A stretch of 64,000 bases of DNA from a virus, in the IMG/VR virus record IMGVR_UViG_3300008267_000005, positions 1 to 64,000 of that record; one strand, given 5' to 3'. The translations under genes and the position numbers were made by a program. The notes under the pieces are model-generated. The model did no database searches, was not told where the DNA came from, and was given only the letters and a program-made list of their open reading frames with translations. Shown piece by piece: positions 5,419 through 63,118 of this stretch (the stretch's first letter is position 1; every line of letters begins with the position of its first letter).

Positions 5419-5679
5419 CTACAAGTTGTTCTGGTAGTGAGCAAAGAGAAGTAGACAAAATAAACCCCCTCCCAACAATGTCGCTCCTATATCCTCAAGA
5501 CTAATACGCTTCTTACTAAACCAATATCCCCATAATTCCCTTCCCAAAGCAGCAACAACCACCGCTAACCAAGCCCACACCCATTTAAAATCAATAGAAA
5601 AAAGCACAAAAATCACCCCACCAGCCAATACATGCTGAAGCTTATCCTTCTCGTTAAACCATTTAAGCAATAATTCCAT
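5419..5679 (-). CDS. small membrane protein, YfiM/VanZ-like
   Basis: The product is 86 aa. It begins with an amphipathic helix, then DKLQHVLAGGVIFVL, a second hydrophobic pair around 30-45, a GRELWGYW segment, and the ending LEDIGATLLGGGLFCLLLF. The D-K-x-x-H start, the central R-E and the late D-I-x-A-x-x-x-G recall small YfiM (DUF2279)/VanZ-like membrane proteins found in bacteria and phages. The biochemical role is unknown. It is the gene closest to the putative origin on the left and points away from it. Confidence 0.7.
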   Translation of the reverse strand: MELLLKWFNEKDKLQHVLAGGVIFVLFSIDFKWVWAWLAVVVAALGRELWGYWFSKKRISLEDIGATLLGGGLFCLLLFAHYQNNL

Positions 5680-8575: not shown

Positions 8576-9721
8576 TTAATTATGCGATATAGGAGAAATG
8601 GTTGGACATGGATAAAATGTGACAGGATAAGTTCTTGAATCCCAGCATCCTAATTCAGTAGTGGCAGTTAGTGTGACATTATATGTTCCTGGTTGTGTAT
8701 AGATGTGTGTGGGAGATTGCTCTGTAGATGTTGTACCGTCTCCGAATTCCCAAAGCCAAGCAATTATTGGACTATGGATTGATGTTGATGAATTGATGAA
8801 TTCTGCTGAGGAGTCTTCACAGAAGCATGAATTTTCTGATGAAAAGTTCACTTGCGGGTCTGCTGGATTTATGAATGTGGTCAAGGTAGCAACACATCCG
8901 GAAAAAGAGGTTAGAGTACAAGTTATTTGATCGTAAATGTCTGGATCAACCGTGATTGATTGAGAGGTTTCTCCTGTGCTCCATTGGTAACTTGCAAACC
9001 CTGGTGGAGCGGTGAGATTTGCAACACTATCTTGAACACAATACAAGACCTCTAGTTCCATTGGCTGACATCCGATTGCATCTATATAAGCATATCCAAA
9101 ATGTGCACCAAGATCACAATCACCTGTTTTGAATTCCAATGTTACTGATTGGCCAATAAATGCACTAAGATCCACTCCTACTGTTGTCCAGTTTCTATAA
9201 ACAATATTAATAGGGTTTCCTTGCCAATCTATACCTGGACAGGTTTGAAATCCAGGAAGATTGGATGATGAGCTCACCATATATTGGGTACATGGAATGG
9301 GATTGCCTCCTGCAATAACTTGGGTTTCAAATCTTGGCTGTTCATCATCGATGTGTCCAGGATCTTCAAATACCACAGCATATTGGTAGGTAAAGAGACT
9401 TGAGTTTGCTGTCACTGTATAAGTGTAGCTTAGGCTTTCTGCTCTAGATCCTCTATTTGGATTTCCTAGTCTAGCTGAGAAATTTCCCCCCAGTGGTGAA
9501 ACTACTGGTACTTGGTTGCATGTTCTGGGATCTGTTCCTGATCCAGATGTGATAAGGTGTCTGGTCGCAACTAATCCTGCATTGGGCAAGTCTATTGGGC
9601 AGCAAAACCCAGTTCTTCCTGACCAACCTGAAAAATTTCCTAGTTCAAAATCTGCATTGTCACACTGAGAAAATGAAGAAAGACTTGCTATGAAAAACAC
9701 TATTGTTACCCAGTGTTTCAT
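8576..9721 (-). CDS. secreted protein with PKD domain
   Basis: The product is 381 aa. A Sec signal peptide covers residues 1-19 (ends SFSQ). A beta-rich, Cys-containing region (about 20-210, with NADFELGNFSGW at its start) follows, then an Ig-like part and a PKD domain (about 288-370) with the hallmark WLWEFGDGTTS and GTYNVTLTAT. Such domains occur in Bacteroidota surface adhesins. It ends in PTISPISHN, the same ending as the protein of 10295-10852 (PTISPISHD), encoded with different codons. It has no T9SS sorting domain of its own. Last gene of a three-gene leftward operon. Confidence 0.9.
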   Translation of the reverse strand: MKHWVTIVFFIASLSSFSQCDNADFELGNFSGWSGRTGFCCPIDLPNAGLVATRHLITSGSGTDPRTCNQVPVVSPLGGNFSARLGNPNRGSRAESLSYTYTVTANSSLFTYQYAVVFEDPGHIDDEQPRFETQVIAGGNPIPCTQYMVSSSSNLPGFQTCPGIDWQGNPINIVYRNWTTVGVDLSAFIGQSVTLEFKTGDCDLGAHFGYAYIDAIGCQPMELEVLYCVQDSVANLTAPPGFASYQWSTGETSQSITVDPDIYDQITCTLTSFSGCVATLTTFINPADPQVNFSSENSCFCEDSSAEFINSSTSIHSPIIAWLWEFGDGTTSTEQSPTHIYTQPGTYNVTLTATTELGCWDSRTYPVTFYPCPTISPISHN

Positions 9722-9731
9722 ATTTTTGTTT

Positions 9732-10295
9732 TTATCTTATTAGTACAACGTGTCCTATTTTACTTCCTGTTGCCCCGTCTTTTCCTGTCCATTCCGCTTT
9801 ATATATATAAACGTCATTTTGCACATAATAATCTCCTCCTCTGAAAGAGCCATCCCAAAGATCTTCTATTGAGTGGGATTCATAAATTTGTAATCCCCAT
9901 CTATCGAATATTTTCCATTCTATTTTCACAATACCCATTCCATTTGGACCCCACCTGTCGTTTATCCCATCAGCATTTGGTGTGAATGCGTTGGGAAAAT
10001 AGATTATTGATTCCATGCACTCAATAACATGGACCCAATAAGTTTTAGGGTTTATTGGACAGCCACTTTCAAAATTAGCTACTATTTCATAATTCCCAGG
10101 AGTGTCCCAAGTGATAGTGACTGTATTTGAATGTGAAAGAGTATCTGAGCCAACTGTCCAGAACCAACTCCCCACAACATTCGATGAAGAGTAATAAGTG
10201 AAAGTGTTTTTATAATCTTCGCAAAGTTCTATTGTTTGCTGTGTAAAGGAGAATTTGCTCAGCACCAATAGCACGAACAAAACTAAACGTTTCAT
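9732..10295 (-). CDS. secreted protein with T9SS type B sorting domain
   Basis: The product is 187 aa. Signal peptide at 1-18 (ends FTQ), a short Ig/PKD-like domain (about 20-90: WFWTVGSDTLSHSN), then a complete gliding-motility-associated C-terminal (CHU_C, type B) domain at about 95-187: IYFPNAFTPNADGINDRWGP, IFDRWGLQIYES, LWDGSFRGG, and GHVVLIR at the very end. In Bacteroidota this domain sends proteins through the type IX secretion system to the cell surface. Its start overlaps the stop of the upstream gene (TAATG), so translation is coupled. A phage gene with a host T9SS address is unusual. Confidence 0.92.
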   Translation of the reverse strand: MKRLVLFVLLVLSKFSFTQQTIELCEDYKNTFTYYSSSNVVGSWFWTVGSDTLSHSNTVTITWDTPGNYEIVANFESGCPINPKTYWVHVIECMESIIYFPNAFTPNADGINDRWGPNGMGIVKIEWKIFDRWGLQIYESHSIEDLWDGSFRGGDYYVQNDVYIYKAEWTGKDGATGSKIGHVVLIR

Positions 10296-20754: not shown

Positions 20755-20810
20755 GTCTTCTGTAATCTTTTTTGGAAACGGTGTATAATTTTTCAAACCA
20801 TTTCCAAAAT

Positions 20811-22475
20811 ATGAAATATTCACTTCTATTATTTTTTACACTTTTTTATTTGCAGATCTTTTCTCAGTCTTGTGCAGGTGATACTATTAATCCCTGGTAT
20901 GTTAACTTTAATCCCAATGTGACTTTAGGTTGCAATGATGATTTATCTTCTGCTATTCCTGATGTCTTTGACAACTGTGATACTCTAGTTGAGCTTGTAT
21001 TCTACGAAGAGGTTTTTTCTGGAGACTGTGCAGGATCTATCAATATATTCAGGGTTTATAGAGCTTTTGATGATCAAGGCAACCAAGCAGTTGAGTCACA
21101 AAACATCTATATTGTTGATGAATCATCCCCTTCTTTTGTTAATCTACAAAGTCAAATTGTAGTGGGATGTGGATCTGATGATACTCTCGCATATCCTCAA
21201 GTCATTGATAATTGCTCATCGGACATTGTTCTTACTTATCAAGATACTGAAGTTCAGTATTTTGGATGTGATTCTTCTTTCTATAGAATTTGGACCGCAA
21301 CAGATGAATGCGGTAACTCTTCTTATTTCAGTCAAAATATTTCTTTTCAGGACTTATCTGAACCCACTATAAGTAATTGTCCGCCAGATCTTGTTTTAAG
21401 TACGGGAGAAACATTACCAGAGGGTTACGAGATCTTAGTCTCTGATAATTGTGACCAGAACCTTACAGTTAATTATGAAGAATTCTATTTAGGTGATAGT
21501 ACACCCAATTGTTCGATATTTACTCCACCTGCATCAAGTGGTGGTAATTGCGACGTTATCGTAAATGGTGGGTTAGTTGATTGGGGAATGCAATTGATGA
21601 ACTTACCTGTTCTCCATAGGTTTTATAGTGTTGAATCTGGACAGATAACTCAAATTGATAGTAACACAATCAGAATATCTGCAATGCTGACAAACGTATT
21701 CAACAACCAAAATGGATTTCTTGTTGATGTTACTTTTACTGGAGCATATACTTGGGAAGAATGGACTTCTTTATCTTATCCCACAAGCTTCAAAGCAGAC
21801 TGCAACGGCAGTGAGTCAAATCACGATTCGTGGATCTACTATCTATTAAACAATGGCGATGGTGCAGAGTTAACTGGATTCGGCGATTATACAGGATCTG
21901 CAATAAGTCTAACTCACGCTCCTGCAAATCAATATTTTGGTTTTCAGTACGGGAACGGAGCCAATAACTATAATTCCTCAGCTAATGGATTTGGTGGTTG
22001 GTTCAATTACTCTGGAGTATTTCCGAGTCAACCAGGACAGTTCGCTCCAATTTCTGGAGCGGGTGATTTTGCTTTTGATACCGATTGCTCAAATGAATAC
22101 ACTTTGATTAGACAATGGACAGTTACAGATTGCTCAGGAAATTCATCTGTTTGCTCACAGACGATTAGATTTTTAAACACCGGAGAGAACGCTAATAGTG
22201 AATTGGATGCAGAAGATTTACCAAGCAAGGAAATAGGAAGGAAAGAATCGTTACAAATCCAATCATCTCCAAACCAGGTGTTCTTTAAAAATCTATCGGA
22301 TAGTCAAGGAACAATTGAAGTATATGACATGAATGGCAAGAAATGTTTAGAGACAAACATTCAACCTGAAAACATAATGTCGATTGATTACGATAATCAC
22401 CCCTGCGGGTTATACATGTATGTGTTCACTACCCCTGAAGTTATAGAAGTTAAAAATTTCTTAGTTGGCAATTAG
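20811..22475 (+). CDS. large secreted protein with T9SS type A sorting domain
   Basis: The product is 554 aa from ATG 20811 (signal peptide at 1-19, ends IFSQ; an upstream frame start at 20772 would bury it). Two or three HYR/Ig-like repeats at about 25-220 share SDNCD/VDNCS and DECGNSS/DCSGNSS motifs. A unique beta-rich domain follows at about 235-420 (WIYYLLNNGDGAELTGFGDY). The C-terminal 70 residues (IQSSPNQVFFKNLSDSQGTI, VYDMNGKKC, GLYMYVF, KNFLVGN) form a T9SS type A sorting domain. Predicted cell-surface adhesin or modifying protein of the infected host. Confidence 0.9.
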   Translation: MKYSLLLFFTLFYLQIFSQSCAGDTINPWYVNFNPNVTLGCNDDLSSAIPDVFDNCDTLVELVFYEEVFSGDCAGSINIFRVYRAFDDQGNQAVESQNIYIVDESSPSFVNLQSQIVVGCGSDDTLAYPQVIDNCSSDIVLTYQDTEVQYFGCDSSFYRIWTATDECGNSSYFSQNISFQDLSEPTISNCPPDLVLSTGETLPEGYEILVSDNCDQNLTVNYEEFYLGDSTPNCSIFTPPASSGGNCDVIVNGGLVDWGMQLMNLPVLHRFYSVESGQITQIDSNTIRISAMLTNVFNNQNGFLVDVTFTGAYTWEEWTSLSYPTSFKADCNGSESNHDSWIYYLLNNGDGAELTGFGDYTGSAISLTHAPANQYFGFQYGNGANNYNSSANGFGGWFNYSGVFPSQPGQFAPISGAGDFAFDTDCSNEYTLIRQWTVTDCSGNSSVCSQTIRFLNTGENANSELDAEDLPSKEIGRKESLQIQSSPNQVFFKNLSDSQGTIEVYDMNGKKCLETNIQPENIMSIDYDNHPCGLYMYVFTTPEVIEVKNFLVGN

Positions 22476-39441: not shown

Positions 39442-41565
39442 ATGCTTAAATCCTCTAAAATATCTTTACTGGTTTGTATTGTTTTAATGACAATATTCTT
39501 TTCGGTAAAAACATTAGTTCTTTTCGAGACCGTACAAAGTTCTAGGTTAACTAGGATAACCGAATATATTTGTTTCCTTTCTTTCGCTCCCTTCTTTTTT
39601 ATGCTCATTAGGGATCTCAAAATCAAAACGAAAGACACAATATTTCTGAATGATTATTCTAAGAAAATTAATTCTTCCCTGATTAAACAGGCATATAATG
39701 AAATTTACTATTTTGGTGATATCGATCAAGCAGCAAGGTCTGTAACTAAAGAAATAACGGAAACGATTGATGCAGATAGAGCTTCTATTTGGTTGTATAA
39801 CAAAGATAGATCTGGGATTGTTTGTCAGCAATTGTATTCAAAATTAGAAGATTCATTCCAAGACGGAATAGAGTTATTCGAAAAAGATTTTTCAGAGTAT
39901 TTTGAAGCTTTGAGAAATGAACCAATAATAGTTGCAAATGATGCTGAAAACCATCCCTCCACAAGATGTTTTACTGATCCATATCTAAAACCTTTAGGGA
40001 TAAAATCGATGCTGGATGTTCCTATTTGGTACAAGGGATCAAATATTGGTGTGATTTGTATAGAGAATCTCACCTCTAGGAAATGGAGAAAAATAGAAGT
40101 TAATTTTGCACAGATCCTTTCTTCGCTATATTCGTTTGGATTCTCGATGCACGAAACCAATGATTTGCTTAGGAGAATCAAAGAAACTGAAAATTTTATC
40201 GACAAATCATCTCTGGTTTCAATAGCTGATAAAAACGGAAAAATAACTTATGTCAACGAAAAATTTTCTGAAGTTTCTGGTTGGAGTCTAGAAGAAGCTT
40301 GTGGTCAAGATCACTCTATTGTAAACTCCGGTCTACAACCTGATGGATACTGGGGGAAAATGTATGAGAAAGTTTTGAATGGACAAATATGGAATGACAT
40401 TGTAGTTAACAGATCGAAGAATGGACATTTATATTATGTTGATACTTATATCAAGGCAATTTTTGATTCTGGGGGTAAACTAGAGGGATTCCATTCCATT
40501 CGACAAGATGTAACTGAAGTTATAAGAAAAGAAACTGAGATTAGAAATAGGATGAATGCTATCAATCAATCCAATGCTGTTATAGAATTTGATTTAGACG
40601 GGAATATAATGTTTGCTAATAATCTTTTTTTGGAAACTATGGGTTACGATTCTTTTGATGAAATAAAAGGAAAGAATCATAGTTTGTTTGTTTCAGAAGA
40701 GGAGAAAAATAGTAGGGAATATTCCAACATGTGGAAAAATCTATGCATGGGAATTTATTTTTCAAACGATGTAGTTAGGATCAGAAAAAATGGGGAACAG
40801 GTTTTTCTTCAATCCACCTATAATCCAATTTTAACTACTGATGGGAAACCATATAGAATAATGAAAATTGCTACTAATGTTACTGAATCTGTTAAACAAA
40901 AAAATGAAATAGAAAAAAAGAACACTTATTTGGAACATGCTGCTAAAATTTTAAGACACGATATGCACTCTGGGATTAATACGTATATTCCTAGAGGACT
41001 AGGATCTTTAGAAAGAAGGCTCAAACAGGAAGATATAGATTCGCTTAAAATTGAAGCTCCAATCAAAATGATCAAAGAAGGTCTTAGACATGCCCAGAAG
41101 GTTTACAAGGGTGTTTATGAATTTACAAATTTAGTAAAGAAGGATGTAGTTCTAAATAGAACAGATTGTAATTTAAAAATAATCCTACAGGACTATCTTT
41201 CTGCAACTGCTTATCATAGTCAAGTTATCATTTCAGATCTTCCAACAATCAGCGTGAATGAACCACTATTTTGTACTGCTGTAGACAACCTAATAAGGAA
41301 TGGACTTAAGTACAATGACTCGGAAACAAAATTTGTCAAGATTTATTTTGAAGAAGATACTCTTTATATACAGGATAATGGAAGAGGTATAACACAGGAA
41401 GACTTTGAACATTTATCTAAACCCTATACTAGGAAAGAGGGGCAAAAGGAATCTGGAACCGGATTAGGTTTAAACATATGTGTAGCAATTCTTCACGAGC
41501 ATGGATTTTCTATAACTTGTGAGAAAAACCAAATAGGGACCAAGATGAAAATAAAGATGCTATAA
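39442..41565 (+). CDS. membrane sensor histidine kinase (GAF-PAS-PAS-HK)
   Basis: The product is 707 aa. Two spans at about 7-28 and 42-56, a GAF domain (about 75-250), PAS domain 1 (about 255-370: ADKNGKITYVNEKFSEVSGW) and PAS domain 2 (about 375-490: IMFANNLFLETMGY), then the kinase core. The H-box is LRHDMHSGINTY with predicted phospho-His506, unlike the common HDLRNPL/HELRTPL. ATP site: N-box DNLIRNGLKYN, G1 DNGRGIT, G2 GTGLGLNI. All ATP-binding motifs look intact. First gene of an operon with a second kinase and a receiver protein; its stop overlaps the next start (TAATG). Confidence 0.93.
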   Translation: MLKSSKISLLVCIVLMTIFFSVKTLVLFETVQSSRLTRITEYICFLSFAPFFFMLIRDLKIKTKDTIFLNDYSKKINSSLIKQAYNEIYYFGDIDQAARSVTKEITETIDADRASIWLYNKDRSGIVCQQLYSKLEDSFQDGIELFEKDFSEYFEALRNEPIIVANDAENHPSTRCFTDPYLKPLGIKSMLDVPIWYKGSNIGVICIENLTSRKWRKIEVNFAQILSSLYSFGFSMHETNDLLRRIKETENFIDKSSLVSIADKNGKITYVNEKFSEVSGWSLEEACGQDHSIVNSGLQPDGYWGKMYEKVLNGQIWNDIVVNRSKNGHLYYVDTYIKAIFDSGGKLEGFHSIRQDVTEVIRKETEIRNRMNAINQSNAVIEFDLDGNIMFANNLFLETMGYDSFDEIKGKNHSLFVSEEEKNSREYSNMWKNLCMGIYFSNDVVRIRKNGEQVFLQSTYNPILTTDGKPYRIMKIATNVTESVKQKNEIEKKNTYLEHAAKILRHDMHSGINTYIPRGLGSLERRLKQEDIDSLKIEAPIKMIKEGLRHAQKVYKGVYEFTNLVKKDVVLNRTDCNLKIILQDYLSATAYHSQVIISDLPTISVNEPLFCTAVDNLIRNGLKYNDSETKFVKIYFEEDTLYIQDNGRGITQEDFEHLSKPYTRKEGQKESGTGLGLNICVAILHEHGFSITCEKNQIGTKMKIKML

Positions 41566-42152
41566 TGAAAACGCTATTATTAGTTTTCCTCCTAATTTCT
41601 TCTTTGGTTTATTCACAAAACCAATATCCCATTCAAACTATTTTTCGTGGGGACTCTGTAGTTATTCTGACAATCGCACAAAGTGAAGAGATTAACAGAA
41701 CTATCGATGAACAAAATCTGTTGATGCTAAATAAATTTAAAGCTTTTAAAAACACAACGGATAGTCTTAATCGTTTTATTTCATTACAAAATAAAGAAAT
41801 TGATAGTCTCAAAAATTCATTAGATTCCTCTTTAGCATGGAATAACGCTCTTTTAGATAGCATATGGAAATGGTCACTTTCACCTTCGATTATTTTCACC
41901 TCAAGTCCTTTAGATACTGAGCTTTATGTTTTAGACCTTTCAAGATATTTTCTTACAACTGACGACTATGGAATTTTTTTACCAAGGATGAAAGACAGTG
42001 AATATAGAAGATTCTTAGAATATTCTGAAAACGGACAAGGTCCAGGATCAAGAGAAAGGGGATTTGGGGGACTAGGTGATTTGGAACTTGTTGGTCAAGA
42101 AAGAATCAGACAAAGAAAAGTTTGGAAACACAAATCACAATGGAAAAAATGA
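41565..42152 (+). CDS. exported coiled-coil protein of the signalling operon
   Basis: The product is 195 aa. Signal peptide at 1-17 (ends VYSQ), then a coiled coil at about 48-95 (EEINRTIDEQ...SLKNSLDSSL), and a globular, Gly/Arg-rich C-terminal part. Predicted periplasmic. Located between the two kinase genes with TAATG and ATGA overlaps, so it is made with them and could be the partner or ligand-binding subunit of the kinase periplasmic parts; inference. Confidence 0.82.
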   Translation: MKTLLLVFLLISSLVYSQNQYPIQTIFRGDSVVILTIAQSEEINRTIDEQNLLMLNKFKAFKNTTDSLNRFISLQNKEIDSLKNSLDSSLAWNNALLDSIWKWSLSPSIIFTSSPLDTELYVLDLSRYFLTTDDYGIFLPRMKDSEYRRFLEYSENGQGPGSRERGFGGLGDLELVGQERIRQRKVWKHKSQWKK

Positions 42153-43405
42153 AAAATGCCCTTATCCTTTTAATTCTATTCTTACCTTTATTTTCTTTAT
42201 CGCAAGATACAGTAGTGGACAGAAGAATACGCCCTGTATGGGTTGAACCAGAAAAGGTGTTTGAACCTAAGGAGGAAAAAGTCATAACCGCAACAATCTT
42301 GGAAGATGAACTATTTGTAGTTGAAAGCGTTAAAAAAGATTTACAGTTCTTAGAGACGTTACCAAAAACTTACGAAGAACTTCCCAAGCAGGATTTAAAG
42401 AATATTCTTCAAGAGATTGATAATAAAATAAATAAGCTTATTCAAGAGAGAGATTCGTTACTCCAAGCAAAAGTTGTTAATCAAAAATTAGTCGAAACTA
42501 AAGAGGGAACAATTAAAACTCTTAAAAAGGAAAAGAACATTGTTACCTTAACTCTTGAATCTGGAGATTTAAAAGACGAAAATGGAAATCTTATAGTTGA
42601 CAAGGAAATTTTAAAGACTGAAAAAGAAACATATAAGAAATATCTTTATACTGCAATTATTGGATTAGTTCTTTCAATACTTGGAGTTATGGTTCTTTTA
42701 CAGAGAAAAACAATCAGGGTCAAAGACGGAGAGATAGAAAGCCAGTTAGACGATATAAACAAAAAGAACACTTATTTAGAGCACGCAGCCAGAATTATCA
42801 GGCACGATATGCACTCGGGAATTAACACATACATTCCTAGGGGACTGACTTCTTTAGAAAAGAGGATATCTCCAGAAGAAGTACAAAATCTTAAGATAGA
42901 GACCTCTTTAAAAATGATTAAGGATGGATTGGCTCACACTCAAAGGGTTTACAAGAGTGTGTACGAGTTTACTAATTTGGTAAAGCAAAATGTTGTTTTA
43001 GATAAAAAGTTGATTAGTATTTCCGAGATATTGCAAAACTATATGAGCAACACCTCTTATTCAAACCAGGTTAAACTTGAGTCGCTTCCTGACTTAGAGG
43101 TTAATGCAGTATTATTTTGTAATGCACTCGATAATCTTATAAAGAATGGACTTAAATATAATGACAACGAGGATAAATATGTTAGAATTTACATGGAAGA
43201 AGAAAATCTCGTAGTTCAAGACAACGGGAGAGGACTAACAAGAAAACAGTTTGAAAAAATCATCAAACGCAAAAGGGAAGAACAAGAGGAAGGGGAAATG
43301 GGACTGGGTTTGAGTATTTCTAATGTAATTTTTAAGGAGCACGGATTTGAGATGTTGTGTGATAAAAATGACATCGGAACCAAAATAATAATTAAACTGA
43401 AATAA
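42149..43405 (+). CDS. second sensor histidine kinase with periplasmic coiled coil
   Basis: The product is 418 aa from ATG 42149 (ATGA overlap; an in-frame ATG lies 9 nt earlier). Signal peptide MKNALILLILFLPLFSLSQD, a periplasmic region with a coiled coil (about 85-160), one span at about 165-185, a short linker helix, then a kinase core. The stretch KKNTYLEHAARIIRHDMHSG (phospho-His219) through PRGL is nearly identical to that of the first kinase, as are the N-box DNLIKNGLKYN and G1 DNGRGLT; G2 is MGLGLSI. The two kinase cores are paralogues with different sensors, so they probably share one response regulator. Confidence 0.92.
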   Translation: MKNALILLILFLPLFSLSQDTVVDRRIRPVWVEPEKVFEPKEEKVITATILEDELFVVESVKKDLQFLETLPKTYEELPKQDLKNILQEIDNKINKLIQERDSLLQAKVVNQKLVETKEGTIKTLKKEKNIVTLTLESGDLKDENGNLIVDKEILKTEKETYKKYLYTAIIGLVLSILGVMVLLQRKTIRVKDGEIESQLDDINKKNTYLEHAARIIRHDMHSGINTYIPRGLTSLEKRISPEEVQNLKIETSLKMIKDGLAHTQRVYKSVYEFTNLVKQNVVLDKKLISISEILQNYMSNTSYSNQVKLESLPDLEVNAVLFCNALDNLIKNGLKYNDNEDKYVRIYMEEENLVVQDNGRGLTRKQFEKIIKRKREEQEEGEMGLGLSISNVIFKEHGFEMLCDKNDIGTKIIIKLK

Positions 43406-43409
43406 AATT

Positions 43410-43841
43410 ATGATTGATTCAATTTTGTTAGTAGACGATGAGGACTTATTCCACTTAGTTTTTGAGGATTCCTGTTCATTGTTAGATATAACTCTTTCTT
43501 TAAAGACCTTGAACAGCTCAGATGAAGCTGCTAAACTTTTCCAGCAGTGGCAGAAAAACCCAGCAGAAAAACCAGAATGTGTTTTTGTTGACTTGAATAT
43601 CATAGGTTCTTCCTTTGATGGTATCGAGCTTATTAGAAAAATCAACTTTGAATACGGAAATCACGTTGTGATAGGTATAATTTCATCATCTAATGAACCC
43701 GATGAACAGGCTAAAGCAATACAAGCGGGAGCTCAATTTTGGATTATAAAATCTGATGATATTGAACCAAGACTTGAAGAATTTAAAAAGGATTACGACG
43801 GATACAAAAAAAGAACTGCACCTTTCAAAGTTTATAAGTGA
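43410..43841 (+). CDS. single-domain response regulator (receiver)
   Basis: The product is 143 aa and is a bare receiver domain. Acidic pair Asp9/Asp10 in ILLVDDED, phospho-acceptor Asp61 in CVFVDLN, Ser in IGIISSSNEP, and the conserved Lys in FWIIKSDD are all present. The last about 20 residues are basic. No DNA-binding output domain is attached, so it may act by protein contact, as CheY or as a phosphorelay intermediate. It is 4 bp after the second kinase gene and overlaps the next gene by 4 nt (GTGA). Confidence 0.92.
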   Translation: MIDSILLVDDEDLFHLVFEDSCSLLDITLSLKTLNSSDEAAKLFQQWQKNPAEKPECVFVDLNIIGSSFDGIELIRKINFEYGNHVVIGIISSSNEPDEQAKAIQAGAQFWIIKSDDIEPRLEEFKKDYDGYKKRTAPFKVYK

Positions 43842-44527
43842 TTAAACTAACCAGTGAAATAAAGAAGGAATTAATTTCCATCTCTGAATCTAAAAATCTT
43901 TTTTTAGAAGGTAACATCATTAAAGTAATAGATTCTGGTGGGGACGAGGAATTTAGCGAGTATTTAAAAAAGTGTTCAGAGAAAGATATTGCCACTAGGA
44001 AGAAAAGGCTCGAAATCACCAAACAGATCCAGACAAAAAATAAGGAGTTATTGGATCTTAATGATGAGAACAAAAGAATAATGGAGGAGCTTCAGGAAGC
44101 CCTTACTCAAACAGAAACTTCTAAAGAACAAATCGAAAGTCAAAATAAAGAACTGCTACTCTGGAAAGATGACAACGAAAGGATGAGTCAAGAACTCAGG
44201 GAAGAAATGCTTAAATCTGAGAGAGCAAGGGAAGAAGCAGAAAAGGCTAAACAAAATGCTGAAAATGATTTAGATGTTCTACAGAAAAGAACACAATTCG
44301 AATTAATTAGCACCATAGTAAGGGTTGCTCTTTATATAATTCTAGGAGTAGGTTTGGTCACAACCGGGCTTTATTTAACTGCAATGTTCACAGATAAGGA
44401 CACACAAATAATTAGTTCTACCTGGAGCAATATGTTTGGTATTCTATTAACAAATGCCTTTAGTATTATCGGTACTATAATGGGTGTTAAATATGCTTCG
44501 CAAGGATCAGGAAAATCTGGAGAATAA
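43838..44527 (+). CDS. coiled-coil membrane protein of the signalling operon
   Basis: The product is 229 aa from GTG 43838, which overlaps the receiver stop. Residues 1-50 are soluble, 50-150 a long coiled coil (LLDLNDENKRIMEELQEALT), then two spans at about 155-182 and 198-222 with GTIMGVKYASQGSGKSGE at the end. The soluble part could bind the receiver and pass the signal to the membrane pair, which recalls small two-span lysis-type proteins. This output role is a hypothesis. Confidence 0.82.
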   Translation: MIKLTSEIKKELISISESKNLFLEGNIIKVIDSGGDEEFSEYLKKCSEKDIATRKKRLEITKQIQTKNKELLDLNDENKRIMEELQEALTQTETSKEQIESQNKELLLWKDDNERMSQELREEMLKSERAREEAEKAKQNAENDLDVLQKRTQFELISTIVRVALYIILGVGLVTTGLYLTAMFTDKDTQIISSTWSNMFGILLTNAFSIIGTIMGVKYASQGSGKSGE

Positions 44528-49144: not shown

Positions 49145-52100
49145 TTATGTAGTTGGAATTTCTCTTCCCCATTTTTTATTTAACTTCTCCTTGTATTCTT
49201 TATATCTTCCCCACTGAGAACCCAATTGAAAATATGTAGATCCTCCATGTAGAATCCATTTTTTCTTATTTTCTTTCTCATCTGGGTAATTATAGGGTTC
49301 CGTGTAATCACACAATATAGTCTTTCCATTTTCTCCTAATTGTACACAAAAATCTTCAACGTATAAATGAAAATCGTCAAATGTATTTTCGTCGAAATTG
49401 AGATCTAAGTTTTCTGTATCAATAACTATAAAACATGAATCCGCTGTTAAAATATCTCTCGACTCTTTTGAATCTGAAGAAATTATTTGATTGCCATTAG
49501 ATCCTGCCATCCCGAAAAATTTAGAATCTGGGTTTAATTTTACGGTTTCTTTTATTTGATCTAAAAGATCATTAGAAAATGCTACATCCTCGTGGCACAA
49601 AATAAGCCATTTTGTTTTACATTCACTTATTATTTTATTGTAATTATATGCTGGATTTTTTGAGTCGTCCGTGGATATAGATTGATATTTTCCATCTATT
49701 TTTTCTAGAGAAGGACCTAGGTATTTTTCAAAAGCCTCTTTATTGTGAGAAATCCATCCAAATGTAAAATCCAAATTGGAGGATTTATATTTTTTATCTC
49801 CAATATGTACTATAAACATTATATCATCGTACCTATTTTTTTGATTTCTAAGATCTATAATCTCTATAGATTCCCTGTATTCCTCAGGTAAGCATTCTTT
49901 TAATATTGCAGTATGATTTATATCTTGAATATCCTCGATAATCATAACACTATTTTCTTTTGCTAGTGATATGTAATTTTTGATAAAAAACTTTTGACTC
50001 TCTAATGTATGAGGTCCATCATCTATCAAAATATCAAATCCTTCGGGATTTTCTTCTTTGATTTTTTCTAGTGATTCCTTAGTGTAAGCATCAAAAATGT
50101 GGAATTTATATCTTTCCTGATTTAATCTGTCCAATATATTTTTTCCTATCTGATCTTTAATGTCTGCCATTACTAGATTTGAATCCTCCAAATACTCGTG
50201 CCATAAAAGGGATGATCCCCCGTATTGAACTCCAACCTCCAGTATTGATGATTTTTTTCCAATGTATTTAGATAGGATCCTTTCGTAAGTTTCTATGTAG
50301 CTATGAAGTGTTCCTTTGTCTGTTCCGCCCTCGCTATCAAATCCGTTTATTCTATTAAAGTCTAGTATTCCAGATAAACTTTTTTTTGATTTCAGAAATT
50401 TCTTTCTTACTCCATTAGCATAACTGTTACTTATGTTGTTGTTTTCAGTGAGTGGATCTATATTATTTTTTTTCTCAAATTCATCCGCTTTTTCTAAAGG
50501 AACACAGATATGATCTGACGGATAAGAATGTTCCATCAGATAGATTTCGTAATTCAGGCCTCTTATTTTTTCAAATATGTTAGCTGAAGAAAAACCAAAT
50601 TTAGAAAGCTGGAATTCTTCTATCTCTATTATTATGATAGGCCGATTTTTTTCTATAGTTTTCGTAGCTCCCTCTATGACAAAATTTTCGTACCCCTGAA
50701 CATCAATCTTAATTAAATCTACTTTCTCTATGTTTATAGAATCAAGAGTTATAATTTCTATATTTTCCCCGTTTAATCCCACACCCAGGTCACCTATATT
50801 TAGTCCATTTTCGTGATAATTTATAGGAGAAAGATTGGATTGTGTTATTATGCTACCTAATCCTTTTTTATATTGAATTATGTTTTCAAATTTATTTTTC
50901 CTGATACTTTCTTTCTGGAGAGAATAAATTAAAGATTGAGGCTCAAAACTGTGGACTGTTTTACATAAGCTAGATGCTATCAATGAATGCCATCCGTAGT
51001 TACTTCCTATGTCGACAAAAACGGATTCTTTATCTAGGTAATTTCTTAGAAAAGAAACTATATGAGGCTCCCAGGACTCGCCCTTATTTATTCCTCTTCC
51101 GATAGCATCATTGCTTAATGTTAGAATAGAAAACCCCTCTATTTTAGTTTCAAGAACTTTATCTCCGATTCCTTCCAACTGTAATAGTGTCTTAATAGAA
51201 TCTGTAATTTCACGGGATCTATTATATTGGTGGATTACCGATGGTATTTTTTTATTGACGTGGATCTTTAATTCATTCACCTCTATTGATTCAGGTGCTA
51301 CTCCACAGGTAATACCTATTGTTGCGAAAAAATCCCCGTTTTTCTTGATGCTCGGATTTACAAAATCCTCTATAGAATTATAGCAGATATAGTTGTGTAT
51401 TCCTTGATCCATCATGTCATAAAAGAAGTCTTTCCTCTCATTATACATTCTGATCATTTCTGAGGAGCTTTTTTTACAATACTTAAGAATATTCCCATAT
51501 GATCCTACAATAGTTCCACAGCAAACTATTTTCTCATTTTTAATTTTTTCTAAGTATTCTTCACCGAAGCATTGTATTATCCATCTAGAATTGAATTTGT
51601 TCGAACCTATTGATTCTGATTCATCCTCCTCCGCAAAAAATATGAATTCACCATCTAATCCATCAAATGGGTCGGATTGAAAATATACATCAGAAACATC
51701 CGATAGAAGAACATTTTTATATGTATTTTTCTCTTTTAAAAAATCTAAGAATTTGATGAACCTGTAATTATTAGGTTGCGTTTCAAGTATTTGCCCTGAT
51801 TCAAATGAGAGTATTTCTACTGAATTCTTTTTTAAGTAATCCAATTTATCCTGCGATGCTGATTCTTCAATAATCAGATATACATCGTCATTAAGATTTT
51901 TACTTCTAAATGAATCTACAAAAATTCTTATATCTTCTAATGAAAGATTTATGGCGGCTCCTAATACTAGGTTATTTTTGTTTTTTATTTTATTCCCATA
52001 TTTTTCCTCGTTTTTTGAAAGAATTCCCCAGTTTTTAGGAAGATATGTATTTTCTAAAGGATCTATTTTTTGGAATGTTCTCCATTCGTCAAAAAGATCT

Positions 52101-52774
52101 AATCCCTCTTTCACCTTTCTTATTACCTCATCCTTTATCTTAAATCTTTCCTGGTTTAATTCCTGGTGAGCAGTACTATTGATTTTGTTAATTATAATTT
52201 CAGGACCTCCAAAATAAGATAAATGCCATCCTCCTCTTTCCCACCATTGACAATTAAAATCTAGCCTGCACTCATCTGGGGTTCTTCCTTTTAAAGTCTC
52301 CCAGTCTACTATTTTTGCATGATACCATTTTTCTGGATATACTAATTTGTTGTAAATAGAAGCCCAATAATGATCCATCTCTAGCTTAAATAATCCTTTC
52401 ATTGGATAACTAGTTTTTATGTAGTTTAGTGTGCTCGAATCTGGGATTTCGTCGAGATCACTAATTACAACTATATCATCATTTGATAATCCTAACGAGT
52501 ATAAAGTAGGCATAATTGAATTCCTTTGATATTTTTCTCTTCCCCAAGTATCTAAGTGCAAAGGAAAATTTACTTTAAGATGGATAATTTTATCAATCCA
52601 TTTTTCGTATCTCCACTTATTCTCTTCAAAGAAAAATATTTTATTTTTTCCTGGGTGTGTTGTGTTTGCCTCTACCAATATAAATTGATCCACAACATCA
52701 TAAATTTCAGCAAGTCTAAGCTCCAGAAGTTCGAATTCATTATTAAATGTAAAACAGTCTATTATTTTTTTCAT
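49145..52774 (-). CDS. 1209-aa multidomain glycosyltransferase/methyltransferase
   Basis: Five modules can be traced. (1) About 1-265: GT17-like (MKKIIDCFTFNNEFELLELR, VISDLDEIPD, GGWHLSYFGG). (2) About 268-545: a second GT-A-like domain (VLLSDVSDVYFQSDPFDG, CCGTIVGS). (3) About 555-790: FkbM-type SAM methyltransferase (VFVDIGSNYGWHSL, VDLIKIDVQGYENFVIEGA). (4) About 810-1000: second class I methyltransferase (ILEVGVQYGGSSLLW, DILIDDGPHTLES, VMIIEDIQD). (5) About 1010-1209: GT2/DUF4422-like domain (KTKWLILCHEDVAFS). It is probably a polymerising or capping enzyme for a surface or virion glycan. Codons are A/T-rich even for this genome. Confidence 0.88.
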   Translation of the reverse strand: MKKIIDCFTFNNEFELLELRLAEIYDVVDQFILVEANTTHPGKNKIFFFEENKWRYEKWIDKIIHLKVNFPLHLDTWGREKYQRNSIMPTLYSLGLSNDDIVVISDLDEIPDSSTLNYIKTSYPMKGLFKLEMDHYWASIYNKLVYPEKWYHAKIVDWETLKGRTPDECRLDFNCQWWERGGWHLSYFGGPEIIINKINSTAHQELNQERFKIKDEVIRKVKEGLDLFDEWRTFQKIDPLENTYLPKNWGILSKNEEKYGNKIKNKNNLVLGAAINLSLEDIRIFVDSFRSKNLNDDVYLIIEESASQDKLDYLKKNSVEILSFESGQILETQPNNYRFIKFLDFLKEKNTYKNVLLSDVSDVYFQSDPFDGLDGEFIFFAEEDESESIGSNKFNSRWIIQCFGEEYLEKIKNEKIVCCGTIVGSYGNILKYCKKSSSEMIRMYNERKDFFYDMMDQGIHNYICYNSIEDFVNPSIKKNGDFFATIGITCGVAPESIEVNELKIHVNKKIPSVIHQYNRSREITDSIKTLLQLEGIGDKVLETKIEGFSILTLSNDAIGRGINKGESWEPHIVSFLRNYLDKESVFVDIGSNYGWHSLIASSLCKTVHSFEPQSLIYSLQKESIRKNKFENIIQYKKGLGSIITQSNLSPINYHENGLNIGDLGVGLNGENIEIITLDSINIEKVDLIKIDVQGYENFVIEGATKTIEKNRPIIIIEIEEFQLSKFGFSSANIFEKIRGLNYEIYLMEHSYPSDHICVPLEKADEFEKKNNIDPLTENNNISNSYANGVRKKFLKSKKSLSGILDFNRINGFDSEGGTDKGTLHSYIETYERILSKYIGKKSSILEVGVQYGGSSLLWHEYLEDSNLVMADIKDQIGKNILDRLNQERYKFHIFDAYTKESLEKIKEENPEGFDILIDDGPHTLESQKFFIKNYISLAKENSVMIIEDIQDINHTAILKECLPEEYRESIEIIDLRNQKNRYDDIMFIVHIGDKKYKSSNLDFTFGWISHNKEAFEKYLGPSLEKIDGKYQSISTDDSKNPAYNYNKIISECKTKWLILCHEDVAFSNDLLDQIKETVKLNPDSKFFGMAGSNGNQIISSDSKESRDILTADSCFIVIDTENLDLNFDENTFDDFHLYVEDFCVQLGENGKTILCDYTEPYNYPDEKENKKKWILHGGSTYFQLGSQWGRYKEYKEKLNKKWGREIPTT

Positions 52775-57984: not shown

Positions 57985-58322
57985 TGAAAAATTTGAAATT
58001 ATACGAAAACTTCAATCAAAGAAGTATGATCCTCAGACATAAAATGTCAGGGGAAATAACTGTTAATCTCCAAGGTAGTGAAATAGCTGAAGTTGTTAAT
58101 AACACAAATATTAGATTTCCTTTTCTTGTTGGATCATATTGGAACAGATCTATAGAAACTTGGGCTTGTACAAACAATTTTAAAACAATTGAAACCTGGA
58201 TTAATGGTAGGTTACAAAATTCGATAGATCCTTGTCCAGAAGAAAAGATATTTGGAATACGTAAAAAAGATATTCCACAAGGACACGAACTTAGACTTCT
58301 CTATCCCAATAAATTTAGATGA
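57984..58322 (+). CDS. tagged hypothetical virion protein, 112 aa
   Basis: Start ATG 57984 by TAATG overlap gives MKNLKLYENFNQRSMILRHK, a clear tag. The rest is a small soluble domain with FPFLVGSYWNRSIETWACTN and a basic end. Not recognised apart from the tag. It overlaps the following nuclease gene by 4 nt. Confidence 0.78.
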   Translation: MKNLKLYENFNQRSMILRHKMSGEITVNLQGSEIAEVVNNTNIRFPFLVGSYWNRSIETWACTNNFKTIETWINGRLQNSIDPCPEEKIFGIRKKDIPQGHELRLLYPNKFR

Positions 58323-58906
58323 TGAAAGCTAGAATTATTTACGTTTTATTATTTGCATTCTTAACTTCTTTTTGTTTTTATCCTCCAAGGGTTATTAAAG
58401 TCAAATCTGACATTTTCACTATTTTGTACTCTGAAGAATTTGAACAACCTCTAGAAATTTGGTATAGTGTGAAATGCCCAAATGGCAAGGCTTCTAGAGC
58501 TGGTATGGATTTTTACAAATGTGATTCAATCCACACATCTTCACATGAAGATTATGAAAACAACGTTTGGGATAAAGGCCATTTGGCACCTGCTGCTGAC
58601 TTTTCTTGCGACAAAGCTACTTTACATAAAACCTTTACATATTTGAATTGTGCTTTACAGCACCAAGACTTGAATAGAGGTGTTTGGAGAATGTTGGAGT
58701 TAAGAGAAAGAGAAATAGCTAAGTCTCAGGATGTCTACGTGCATATTAAACTAGACTTTTCTAAAAATACAATTAAGCAGCCAACAGGATCAACCGTTCC
58801 TGGAGGCTTTTGGAAGGAAATACAATATGGACAGATCGTAGAGATGTATTATTTTCCAAATGTCAAACCAACACTAGGATCTTACCCAAATTATAGGGTT
58901 AATTAA
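58319..58906 (+). CDS. exported DNA/RNA non-specific endonuclease (NUC1 family)
   Basis: The product is 195 aa. A hydrophobic N-terminus (IIYVLLFAFLTSFCF) acts as signal peptide or anchor. Beta-beta-alpha-metal nuclease core: VWDKGHLAPAADF near 84-96 with catalytic His88 (D-K-G-H for the family's DRGH), then YLNCALQHQDLNRGVWRMLE with metal-binding Asn119. Truncated relative to long members but with the key residues. Such enzymes cut DNA and RNA without sequence preference; export would place it in the periplasm, where it could cut incoming DNA of other phages. That role is inference. Confidence 0.88.
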   Translation: MMKARIIYVLLFAFLTSFCFYPPRVIKVKSDIFTILYSEEFEQPLEIWYSVKCPNGKASRAGMDFYKCDSIHTSSHEDYENNVWDKGHLAPAADFSCDKATLHKTFTYLNCALQHQDLNRGVWRMLELREREIAKSQDVYVHIKLDFSKNTIKQPTGSTVPGGFWKEIQYGQIVEMYYFPNVKPTLGSYPNYRVN

Positions 58907-59256
58907 TCTTCAGGTTTTAAAAATCTTTTAGCTGAGTAATAATTACCATTCGTGTAATTTATTACTTCTATATACAAGTCAAATAAAATGTATTTTCTAG
59001 ATTCTTTAACGAAGATTTTTCCTTTTATTTCTGTACCACTTTTAAGCAACAAAAAGAAATCTCCATCTGAATCAATCTGATTTTTCTTTATCCTTGTAAC
59101 TAAAGTGTCTCCGATAGGAATTCTCTCAGGTACTGATGAATTGTATAAACTCACTATAGTGTCTTTTCTTCCATTTTGATTGAAGTAATACAATCCGTCT
59201 TGAGAAAATGCGGAGTAACCAAACAACACAAGTAAGATAGTGATTAGATTTTTCAT
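58903..59256 (-). CDS. exported hypothetical protein, 117 aa
   Basis: Signal peptide at 1-18 (ends AFSQ), then a soluble beta-rich domain (GDTLVTRIKKNQIDSDGDFF, KIFVKESRKYILFDLYIEVI). Not recognised. It is convergent with the nuclease gene (4-nt overlap). Confidence 0.78.
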   Translation of the reverse strand: MKNLITILLVLFGYSAFSQDGLYYFNQNGRKDTIVSLYNSSVPERIPIGDTLVTRIKKNQIDSDGDFFLLLKSGTEIKGKIFVKESRKYILFDLYIEVINYTNGNYYSAKRFLKPED

Positions 59257-59276: not shown

Positions 59277-59310
59277 AAAAAAAAGGCCTGGCGGGATGCC
59301 AAGCCTCTTT
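59277..59310 (-). terminator. intrinsic terminator (leftward)
   Basis: Read leftward: GAGGCTTGGC ATCCC GCCAGGCC and nine T, after the subtilase gene. Confidence 0.85.
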
Positions 59311-59331: not shown

Positions 59332-61614
59332 TTATTTAGCCCATTTGAAAGTTTCTGTTCTATCCATATATTGAGCTTTGATAATGTAAATACCACTTGG
59401 TAATTCACTATATCTGTTAATGTCCAATAAAGCTCCAGTAATTGTGTAGATCTCTACAGCAATTGGATAATCGTCTTCAATATAAACACCTTCAGGATCG
59501 TCAAGAAGAGGATAATTACCGATGATATCTTCTCCACTTGTTGCAAGGCGATTGAAAACAAGATCAACCCTATTGTTAGTTGGATCAGTGTCCCCCATTG
59601 TTCCGTTCACACTTATCACATCCAATCTGAAAGTGTTCGAAGTTCCTACTGGAACTGCACATCTTGTTGGGTGACAAAGATTCACACTTATATAAGTGTT
59701 GTTTGCAGGAAGCAAAGTTGATTGTCCAGGAAGCAAAGTGCCTGTCCAAGTTGAATTTGTTACACATCCATAAGCTGCTGTGCAATCAATCCATCTTCTT
59801 GTGTAATTGATCTGGTTGATTGTTGTAGTTCCTGTGTTAACCGCTCTCCATTGTGTGTTTACTATCTGGAGAGAAGTCGTCCAGGGATTTGCTACTGGTT
59901 GAACAAGTTCCACACGAAGGTCTGTTCCCGTCATAGATGGATTTGCAACATTGAAAGCTTTGAAACTTGTGTTATCCGAAGTTATAGTTTCTTCTGCTGC
60001 ATTGTCATAGTTTATGGTTACGAATATGTAACGTGTACCTGCCATCCCATCAACTGTATAGGAGAAAGATCTAGTTACAGAATTATTTCCTCCACCTAAG
60101 CTCACACTATCGACACCAATTATAATGTCATCTGCATCACCCAATGTAGAGTTTGCTGAATATCTATATTGTACGCCAACAAATGTGGCAAAGGTAGTTG
60201 ATACATTTACTTCTTCAGTAACTATAGCGTTGTAGTTTACTAAAATTGTCTCTCCTAAGTTTACACTAGCTGGAGTTACTATTACATTGTTAACAGTGTA
60301 GTTAGAAACTATTGTTGGTGGAGGTGGAGGTGGACCACCAGGTGTGGGTGTTGCAATAACTGCATTTTTAAGATTAATCCTTCCATAACCTAATTCGTTA
60401 CTTCTAGTACTGTAAGGCCAAGTTGGATTATTAGTGTAAGTGTAACCACCAACCTTTTCACAAGTTGAAGATAGAATTTGCAAAATCTCATCATCAGTTA
60501 ACTCCCAGTTTTTATAAGCGATAACTGCTGAAGCTGCAGCTGTTATTGGACAACTGAAAGATGTCCCGCTAACGCTCTTGTAGTCAGTTGGATCATATCC
60601 TTCGGCACCAAGTCTGTCAGTGGTTCTAATTGCTGAACCGGGTCCAGAAATGTCACAGATTTGACCATAATTCGAAAAACTAGCTCTTGTATCTGATGAG
60701 GTTGTTGCACCAACCCCCCAAACTCCATTGTAGTTAGCTGGATATTGAGCTGCAGTTCCTGAATAACCATTACCGGAAGAAGCAAATACCATCATTCCTT
60801 TGCCTCCTCTTCCGTTTGCCCTTGCATTCAAAAAAGCATTTTCAAGAGTTGCAGAGTATGTGCTACCACCATAAGACATCGCAATAGCAACACAATTGGG
60901 ATTTGCCATTGCTGCATTAACTGCTGCAACTTGAATTCCGGTAGAAGTTCCAAAAGTTCCTCCTGCATAAACCTGCGACATAATGTTGACAGGCATAACC
61001 TTAACAAAGTTGTTACCAACACTGCTAACACCAATTCCGTTATTGGTTCTTGCTGCTATTGTACCAGAGCAAGCAGTACCATGTTTATCTTCTGAGTTAA
61101 CATAGGGAACTGAGTTAGTACCATTCACAGCATTAAACGGGCTGTCGACATTTCCAACAAATTCGGGAATTGTCATATCAAGTCCACCATCAAACATAGC
61201 AACAGAAACCCATTGGTTGTCTGTTGGAAGTAAATCCCAAGCTTCATCTGCATCAATGTCTTTGTCATTTGCTTGTCTCAAATGCCAACAAGAGGCAAAT
61301 TCAGTATCATTGGGAATATAATCGAATTTGATTTCTTCCATTCTATCTCTTTCGATTATACCAAATAAACCACTATCCTCACAGAGTGCTGTGAGAAGAT
61401 CAAAATCATTTGTTCTTACAACATAGATGTCAAGCTGATCTAAATAGCTCACAATCTCTACATTGTAAAAATCCAAAAATTCGTCCACCTGATGCTTCCT
61501 TGCATCAAGCTTCGGTGTAAGTAACACTTGTCTACCTATATCATCTATCAAACTTTGTCCGAGTGACAGAAAAGAAAGTAGTACAAATGAAACAACTGCT
61601 AATACATTTTTCAT
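59332..61614 (-). CDS. secreted subtilisin-like protease with T9SS type A sorting domain
   Basis: The product is 760 aa. Signal peptide at 1-20 (ends LSLGQ), a propeptide at about 21-105, then an S8 peptidase domain (about 130-425) with a complete triad: Asp142 (SVAMFDGG), His178 (DKHGTACSGT) and Ser352 (SGTSFSCP), plus oxyanion Asn282 (SSGNG). A Pro-rich linker (about 437-448) leads to two CARDB/Ig-like domains (about 455-700). The last 60 residues (IAVEIYTITGALLDINRYSE, LPSGIYIIKA, ETFKWAK) form a T9SS type A sorting domain. Predicted surface-attached or released protease made by the infected cell. Confidence 0.93.
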   Translation of the reverse strand: MKNVLAVVSFVLLSFLSLGQSLIDDIGRQVLLTPKLDARKHQVDEFLDFYNVEIVSYLDQLDIYVVRTNDFDLLTALCEDSGLFGIIERDRMEEIKFDYIPNDTEFASCWHLRQANDKDIDADEAWDLLPTDNQWVSVAMFDGGLDMTIPEFVGNVDSPFNAVNGTNSVPYVNSEDKHGTACSGTIAARTNNGIGVSSVGNNFVKVMPVNIMSQVYAGGTFGTSTGIQVAAVNAAMANPNCVAIAMSYGGSTYSATLENAFLNARANGRGGKGMMVFASSGNGYSGTAAQYPANYNGVWGVGATTSSDTRASFSNYGQICDISGPGSAIRTTDRLGAEGYDPTDYKSVSGTSFSCPITAAASAVIAYKNWELTDDEILQILSSTCEKVGGYTYTNNPTWPYSTRSNELGYGRINLKNAVIATPTPGGPPPPPPTIVSNYTVNNVIVTPASVNLGETILVNYNAIVTEEVNVSTTFATFVGVQYRYSANSTLGDADDIIIGVDSVSLGGGNNSVTRSFSYTVDGMAGTRYIFVTINYDNAAEETITSDNTSFKAFNVANPSMTGTDLRVELVQPVANPWTTSLQIVNTQWRAVNTGTTTINQINYTRRWIDCTAAYGCVTNSTWTGTLLPGQSTLLPANNTYISVNLCHPTRCAVPVGTSNTFRLDVISVNGTMGDTDPTNNRVDLVFNRLATSGEDIIGNYPLLDDPEGVYIEDDYPIAVEIYTITGALLDINRYSELPSGIYIIKAQYMDRTETFKWAK

Positions 61615-61643: not shown

Positions 61644-62099
61644 CTACTTTATGTAGTTGCTAAGTTTTTCGCCTGAGGCTTCTCTTCTAATTATTTTTAA
61701 TTGTTTAATGTTCAATCTGTATTTTCCTTCAACTAAAAGAAAAATTTCAACTAATCCAACTGCCATTGCTGCAGGGATCCATGCTCCAGTTAAAACCCCA
61801 ACAACTGCTCCCGCGATTAAAGCTGTTTCTCCTATTGCAACTTTCACCCAAGCTTTTTTCCTTAGGTGCTCTTTCAACATAACAACTTTAGTTCTTTGTA
61901 GCTTCCATTCAAGGGTGTGCATACTATCCCTTTGAAGCTGTACCATTCTTTCTAAAACACCATTGTAGTATTCTAGATCGACGACATATTGGTTAGTCTG
62001 TGCTTTCGCAGAATTGGAAAGAAAGCATATTAATATTACTTTAAAGAAATTATTTAGAGTAAAATTTTTGTTGAATAAAAAAATTCCTATTTGATTCAT
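61644..62099 (-). CDS. exported/membrane hypothetical protein, 151 aa
   Basis: I prefer the ATG at 62099; the frame extends to 62144. Hydrophobic signal-like segment at about 16-32 (FFKVILICFLSNSAKAQ), a helical part with MVQLQRDSMHTLEWKLQRTK, then a Gly/Ala-rich hydrophobic stretch (GETALIAGAVVGVLTGAWIP) and a basic tail. The second stretch may insert in a membrane. Not recognised. A GATATATA motif lies far upstream at 62258-62265 on the minus strand. Confidence 0.75.
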   Translation of the reverse strand: MNQIGIFLFNKNFTLNNFFKVILICFLSNSAKAQTNQYVVDLEYYNGVLERMVQLQRDSMHTLEWKLQRTKVVMLKEHLRKKAWVKVAIGETALIAGAVVGVLTGAWIPAAMAVGLVEIFLLVEGKYRLNIKQLKIIRREASGEKLSNYIK

Positions 62100-62257
62100 G
62101 AAATCAAAAATCACAAGGGGTTTATGAATAAAATTAAATGACAAGTTTCGCCTATTTTGTGGAAATTTTAAGAGGAGAAAAACCTAAAGGATTTCAAAAT
62201 TTTCCTAATTTCCGAAGGACTTACTGTAGTATACAACAGTACGCTTTTTCAATACCT

Positions 62258-62265
62258 TATATATC
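62258..62265 (-). promoter_or_regulatory. GATATATA late-type motif
   Basis: GATATATA on the minus strand at the stop of the gene 62264-63118, about 160 nt before the next leftward start; it would give a long leader. Confidence 0.35.
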
Positions 62266-63118
62266 AAGCCATCGTTGCGGTTCCTGAAGATAGATCAACT
62301 GAAAAATTAGCTGCAAATTGTTGGGCACGTACGAATCCTTCGTCATTGGTAACATCGTTACCCCAACCAGCATTTGCATTAGTCATTGCTTTGGTAGCAG
62401 TGAATTGATCTTTAAAACCGTTTATATCTGCAACACCAAATTTTTGAGCCATTTGCGGACTTGATGCTCTAGATAGGAAATAAAGAACCGCAAATTCTGC
62501 TGCAACTTCCGGATCATCAAGTAAATCTGGATTTGTTACAATGTTTACTTGTCTGTTTAGCTTTCCTTTTGAATCATATAACTTTTGCATTTTTTCATAT
62601 GATCCTTTGAAGGTTAATTGGTTGAAACCTCTTCCTCTAAATTTCCAACCGTCTCCTGGAGCTGAATTTCCATATTTCTGAGACTTCCCTGTTTTATCAC
62701 CTGGTCCATAAACGAGATCAAAGAATTTCTCATCATTTGTCTTGATTTGATCGATTTGAGCATCTGTCAGATCGTTTACTCTTGCTCCAAATATTTTTCT
62801 AATTCTTTCCGGTGAGGTATTTCCGTATCCTTTTTCTATTTTTGGAATGTAACCACTTTCTTTTCCTACTACTCCAAGAATTGCTATTTGTGTGAAAGGA
62901 TTTGTGATCCCGTGCTTTTTCATTGCGTCAATAAGAAGCTGAATATTTTTACCCTTATCACCTGAACCTGAAAATCTCACACTACCACCAACTATAGAAG
63001 GTTTAGGGTCTTTAACTTCTTCTGGTCCACCCAATCCTAATAGGTCTAGAAACTTTCCATAGGCATTTCTAAAAAGTTGTTCGTTTATAAACTCTTCTAT
63101 TGGTTTGAGGTGTTTCAT
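62264..63118 (-). CDS. tagged GH19-like peptidoglycan hydrolase
   Basis: The product is 284 aa. The tag MKHLKPIEEFINEQLFRNAY (site INE|Q) resembles those at 28476 and 29236. Gly-rich linker at about 30-55. GH19/lysozyme-like domain at about 58-270 with catalytic Glu87 in GVVGKESGY, and FRGRGFNQLTFKGSYEKM near 160-177. It is related to the endolysin at 45094 only in this domain. The tag suggests that it is packaged and used for entry, while the untagged enzyme serves lysis. GGATAAATA lies 20 nt upstream. Confidence 0.85.
   Translation of the reverse strand: MKHLKPIEEFINEQLFRNAYGKFLDLLGLGGPEEVKDPKPSIVGGSVRFSGSGDKGKNIQLLIDAMKKHGITNPFTQIAILGVVGKESGYIPKIEKGYGNTSPERIRKIFGARVNDLTDAQIDQIKTNDEKFFDLVYGPGDKTGKSQKYGNSAPGDGWKFRGRGFNQLTFKGSYEKMQKLYDSKGKLNRQVNIVTNPDLLDDPEVAAEFAVLYFLSRASSPQMAQKFGVADINGFKDQFTATKAMTNANAGWGNDVTNDEGFVRAQQFAANFSVDLSSGTATMA

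Follow-up and report, generated by a model that had tools for sequence, protein, structure and literature searches.

The window analyzed here covers the opening 64 kb of a virus record of 174,942 bp (G000). On its minus strand, the window carries a complete 760-aa open reading frame with an ATG start (59332..61614) that encodes a phage subtilase of the S8 family. The product matches PF00082 over the whole domain (profile positions 4-288 of 288; 99.5 bits, E 2.7e-28), and its D142, H178 and S352 triad, found exactly at the positions given in the first-pass annotation, is accompanied by the oxyanion residue N282. The domain match and these motifs together identify it, at the level of sequence, as a member of peptidase S8. 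All four residues were invariant in an alignment of 19 phage homologues, and a profile search of solved structures with the subtilase returned mirolase, AprV2, thermitase and subtilisins. The description of the gene as phage-encoded also held, since the record contains T4-like virion genes for the portal, prohead protease, major head protein, tail sheath and tail tube, and on the replication side UvsX, a DnaB-like helicase, SbcC/D and the clamp loader, a gene set by which we classify the window phage as T4-like. We place the presumed host among the Bacteroidota because signal peptides end in xxSQ or xxAQ and type IX secretion system (T9SS) domains are present.

The layout of the protein agrees with the earlier description of an intact subtilase with a signal peptide and propeptide. 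Residues 1-20 (61555..61614, minus strand, as for all segments of the gene) read from the sequence as a Sec signal peptide with cleavage near SLG|Q, and the N-terminus (MKNVLAVVSFVLLSFLSLGQ) is, judged by eye, of Bacteroidota type. Its hydrophobic core and terminal Q are conserved among homologues, and every phage subtilase with a complete N-terminus carries a signal peptide. The signal is followed by a pro-region of ~97 aa (residues 21-117; 61264..61554) with an alpha/beta I9-like pattern, assigned from an AlphaFold2 (AF2) model and the alignment, in which residues 29-88 form strands and helices in blocks at pLDDT 56-77; this segment evolves fast, with 23-50% identity among homologues. The S8 catalytic domain, with D142, H178, N282 and S352, spans residues 118-420 (60355..61263) according to PF00082 and the alignment, and is separated by a proline linker from the C-terminal half, where residues 435-690 (59545..60312) comprise the end of the linker and two predicted Ig-like beta-sandwich domains. 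These two sandwiches come from an AF2 model built on 19 phage sequences (mean pLDDT 74); a first AlphaFold job on the full subtilase with 7 sequences reached a mean pLDDT of 41, and the catalytic domain was not interpreted from it. When the Ig-like half was searched with Foldseek, the top match in the PDB was the biofilm protein RbmA at low TM-scores, a likeness that we read from the model as fold resemblance only, and the best viral match was another annotated phage S8 peptidase.

The last segment, residues 691-760 (59335..59544), was annotated in the first pass as a T9SS type A tail. The tail appears to be of the right kind and scores weakly: it reached 21.8 bits (E 1.4e-4) against TIGR04183 when cut out and 18.9 bits in place, short of the cut-off of 23, and its match to Pfam PF18962 was insignificant. 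All six close full-length relatives compared (6/6) gave the same sub-threshold TIGR04183 match in the same place, and the tail of one relative (L041) clears the cut-off at 24.3 bits. We regard the tail as a real but borderline T9SS type A-like domain. The T9SS tail has diverged beyond recognition in most jumbo-phage subtilases, so T9SS routing is proposed for the window's sub-clade only. Of the original picture of a secreted, surface-addressed enzyme, secretion is thus supported and the T9SS step moderately so.

Two clear T9SS cargo proteins are encoded elsewhere in the window, a PKD-like protein with a type B sorting domain (9732..10295, minus strand; TIGR04131 48.8-50.9 bits, cut-off 35) and an HYR-domain protein with a type A sorting domain (20772..22475, plus strand; TIGR04183 24.9-28.2 bits, cut-off 23). 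The former is the middle one of three neighboring secreted PKD-type proteins (8576-10852), the first of which (8576..9721, minus strand; PF18911 66 bits) has homologues that adjoin the subtilase in L024, L041 and L042. Related loci also place cargo near the protease: L021-L023 have a gene for a full type A T9SS cargo protein two positions after the subtilase, and a protein close beside the subtilase in L022 (family F38) matches PF18962 with 46.4 bits.

Directly around the window subtilase lie a secreted Serratia-type DNA/RNA non-specific endonuclease with a DKGH motif (family F1; 58319..58906, plus strand; PF01223 70.4 bits), a small signal-peptide protein whose family (F13; 58903..59256, minus strand) is the downstream neighbor in 5 relatives, a second small signal-peptide protein with a hydrophobic C-terminus (F2; 61644..62144, minus strand) located 29 bp upstream of the subtilase, and an endolysin (62264..63118, minus strand; phrog_181 94.6 bits). 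The F2 family occurs within 10 kb of the subtilase in 12 loci. In L022, L023 and L045, genes for an SLT transglycosylase, a small membrane protein and an endolysin-like protein, along with a second F2 gene, are found 2-6 kb downstream of the subtilase.

Of 23 loci left after deduplication, 14 have the nuclease as the gene immediately before the subtilase, in the same orientation; because several of these belong to the same phage species, they amount to about ten lineages. Twelve of these 14 pairs come after gp20-21-22-23 (the portal, gp21, a scaffold-like gene and the gp23 capsid gene), and those in L034 and L042 sit elsewhere, showing that the pair is kept together in different surroundings. 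In the window phage the nuclease, which is free of a T9SS tail, is two genes from the subtilase and on the opposite strand. The nuclease was rejected as a constant partner of the subtilase, as the relatives of 163 kb and 202 kb lack it. Seven jumbo-phage loci carry a further signal-peptide protein between gp23 and the nuclease-subtilase pair (F12; L029 8430-9224), possibly a beta-barrel, for which a family search returned no match.

Several other features of the window phage were recorded. Many of its proteins share N-termini of the type MKHLKxFExF...(F/I)NE that resemble T4 capsid-targeting sequences, with the prohead-protease site after xNE; such starts lie at window positions 26002, 28476, 29236, 45995, 57421, 57978 and 62264 and at record (G000) positions 69446, 93861, 99242, 101104, 106764 and 109522. 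Since the endolysin (62264-63118) and a CHAP-like protein (29236-30009) both carry this N-terminus, the sequences suggest that lytic enzymes are packaged in the phage head. Two histidine kinases are encoded in an operon at 39442-44527 together with a response-regulator-like protein (43410-43841). The latter shares 91% identity with its counterpart in a 322-kb phage, against only ~24-30% for the virion genes of the two phages; the operon is apparently an exchanged phage signaling system. A 1209-aa fusion (49145-52774) joins a GT17-type glycosyltransferase, an FkbM methyltransferase, a second methyltransferase and a GT2-like domain.

In IMG/VR, an alignment-based scan recovered 31 subtilase loci with 44-78% identity on contigs of up to 322 kb, and the same approach applied to 84,980 bacterial and archaeal species returned nothing close. 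Among 395 Bacteroidota genomes, the best match had 45% identity and lay inside a very large protein, and the INPHARED collection of cultivated phages gave only weak matches (25-35% identity). In a maximum-likelihood tree of 19 phage sequences and 31 bacterial rows, the phage subtilases formed one clade with support of 100/100, and all bacterial subtilases in the sample fell outside it. On the basis of this phage-only clade and the 45% ceiling in the 395 Bacteroidota genomes, we rejected a recent host origin. The first-pass annotation had raised the possibility of the same gene at the same locus in the host; a search for it found a member of the phage clade in none of the bacterial genomes sampled.

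Catalytic domains of the phage homologues are 60-88% identical to that of the window, compared with ~24-30% over the aligned parts of the portal, prohead protease and major head protein between the window phage and jumbo phages. Together with catalytic-domain dN/dS values of mostly 0.04-0.14, which denote purifying selection, this difference points to strong constraint and indicates that the gene has probably moved between distant phages. Apparent frameshifts split the ORF in L039 (~11788) and L046 (~5240-5660); both sequences otherwise match intact copies, and the frameshifts are probably assembly errors.

Promoter-like motifs gave information on timing. The motif GATATATA occurs 42 times in the window phage against 7 expected (for example at G000 31475, 147427 and 167110), and 30 of the 42 copies precede an ORF start by 8-35 bp, a spacing that covers 1.8% of positions. 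Starts preceded in this way include those of the tail sheath, portal, gp21 and tail-fiber genes and do not include those of UvsX, the helicase, SbcC/D or the clamp loader, and thus GATATATA behaves as a late promoter. The only such motif upstream of the unit formed by F2, its first gene, and the subtilase (62258..62265, minus strand) lies 121 bp from the listed F2 start, an unusually long gap compared to the customary 12-30 bp that makes it weak evidence, so we infer late timing of the window copy from its relatives. A sigma-70 consensus scan found promoter matches no more often than in shuffled sequence. Following the subtilase, a hairpin with a T-run (59277..59306, minus strand), whose stem includes one G-T pair, was seen in the sequence as a possible terminator; a consensus terminator scan of the window did not call it.

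In related jumbo phages the role of GATATATA is taken by TATTTATA, which is found 22-28 bp before the nuclease-subtilase unit as well as before head genes, and directly before the subtilase in L021-L023 and L042. Within the sampled part of the 322-kb phage, TATTTATA precedes gp22, the endolysin homologue, PKD and HYR T9SS-type proteins, the nuclease-subtilase unit and very large ORFs that are likely structural, and it was not found before thymidylate synthase. The jumbo phage G010 bears TATTTATA at its homologue of the window endolysin; its homologue of the first protein in the window's PKD trio carries the motif as well. In the one jumbo phage checked (L029), strong terminators flank the nuclease-subtilase pair on both sides, making it a unit, which has the TATTTATA motif of head, tail and endolysin genes. 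From these arrangements, the subtilase is apparently switched on together with shell and lysis genes.

We tentatively propose, as the leading reading and one that could well prove wrong, that the subtilase is a late secreted protease that, as infection ends, works beyond the inner membrane and clips a host surface or matrix protein, thereby freeing progeny. The enzyme, predicted to be an active serine protease of a phage-specific lineage, would be expressed late, exported via the host Sec pathway and, in the window's sub-clade, carried across the outer membrane by the host T9SS. Removal of the pro-region would mature it outside the cell, where it would cleave a host surface or extracellular matrix protein around lysis and may so help progeny detach from receptors, debris of the cell and biofilm. 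In related phages, the co-transcribed secreted nuclease and other T9SS cargo would act with the protease. The egress reading is backed by the conserved active site, purifying selection, the phage-only clade, the pairing with a nuclease, and motifs and neighborhoods shared with virion and lysis genes. Incorporation of the subtilase into the virion was judged unlikely because of its signal peptide.

Among the uses offered in the first-pass annotation (exclusion of competing phages, release of progeny, or breakdown of neighbors), release or spread of progeny is favored over exclusion, since the motifs, operons and neighborhoods of the relatives group the gene with capsid, tail and endolysin genes and not with early genes. 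Superinfection exclusion, in which the protease strips phage receptors and the nuclease destroys incoming DNA so that competitors are kept out, is nevertheless the strongest competitor, although an unlikely one: two enzymes outside the inner membrane fit such a two-step barrier, whereas in relatives the promoter-like motif and the neighbors are of the virion and lysis type. T4 Spackle, which is known to act in exclusion, is an early product (PMC7677548). We therefore consider exclusion less likely than a role in egress.

It is somewhat more doubtful that the protease is a lysis factor proper, attacking an outer-membrane or envelope protein from the periplasm in place of spanins. The position of the window subtilase beside an endolysin and a small protein with a signal peptide and hydrophobic tail would suit this role, as would the SLT and endolysin-like genes near it in relatives, but the T9SS-like tail and Ig domains point outwards and the subtilase of the jumbo phages belongs to the head cluster, a long way from the endolysin homologue. 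A purely digestive enzyme pair that degrades extracellular or released polymer, for nutrients or a thinner lysate and with no specific target, appears improbable. Pairing of a protease with a nuclease is typical of extracellular digestion, and the bacterial proteins closest to the subtilase are secreted, multidomain and very large, yet 60-88% catalytic identity across very distant phages is tighter than an unspecific enzyme would predict. Least probable of all is that the subtilase matures secreted proteins encoded with it, of phage or host origin, such as the PKD/HYR T9SS cargo: PKD proteins do accompany it in the window phage and in L024, L041 and L042, but most members lack them nearby.

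Compared with known systems, the phage subtilase shares its fold family, D-H-S triad, pro-region and secretion with mirolase (PDB 8ehe), thermitase and the S8 family in general. It differs from mirolase and thermitase in forming a separate phage-only clade, in adding two Ig-like domains and a T9SS-like tail, and in its location in phage genomes, where it adjoins virion and lysis genes. The sister group in the tree consists of very large secreted Bacteroidota S8 proteins (e.g. L103, 2173 aa), which are very long, multidomain and chromosomal and are only 45% identical in the catalytic domain. Phage-encoded subtilisin-like proteases are also present in the Bacillus phages SP-15 and vB_BcoS-136, though these infect Gram-positive hosts and share 25-30% identity with the window protein in the catalytic part only. 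T9SS cargo has been noted in crAss-like phages (PMC6949934), and Bellas et al. 2020 (PMC7468147) described a cryophage of Bacteroidota that encodes proteins with T9SS type A sorting domains. The cryophage cargo comprises an endoglucanase, GH39 and PA14 proteins that differ from one phage variant to the next, with no protease and no conserved head-gene link reported (PMC7468147), unlike the subtilase lineage of the window. A search of the open-access literature found no report of this protease lineage, of a phage subtilase-nuclease operon or of its place in the head operon. The lineage and its operon look undescribed, while T9SS cargo in phages and phage subtilases as such were already known.

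That very different phages keep the catalytic domain so strongly conserved suggests a target that is specific and shared among them. At a broader level, and as a speculative extension that we hold with less confidence than the egress role itself, large Bacteroidota phages may possess a late secretome of protease, nuclease and PKD/HYR cargo that is co-regulated with capsid and lysis genes and exported by the T9SS, through which the dying cell would process its surroundings for the virions as a counterpart of a receptor-destroying enzyme. How phages exit from gliding, biofilm-forming Bacteroidota and their debris is poorly known, and a defined enzyme pair is supplied here. If the proposal is correct, tailed phages would not only break the host open but also modify the cell exterior through the host's own surface-secretion machine, both before release and during it.
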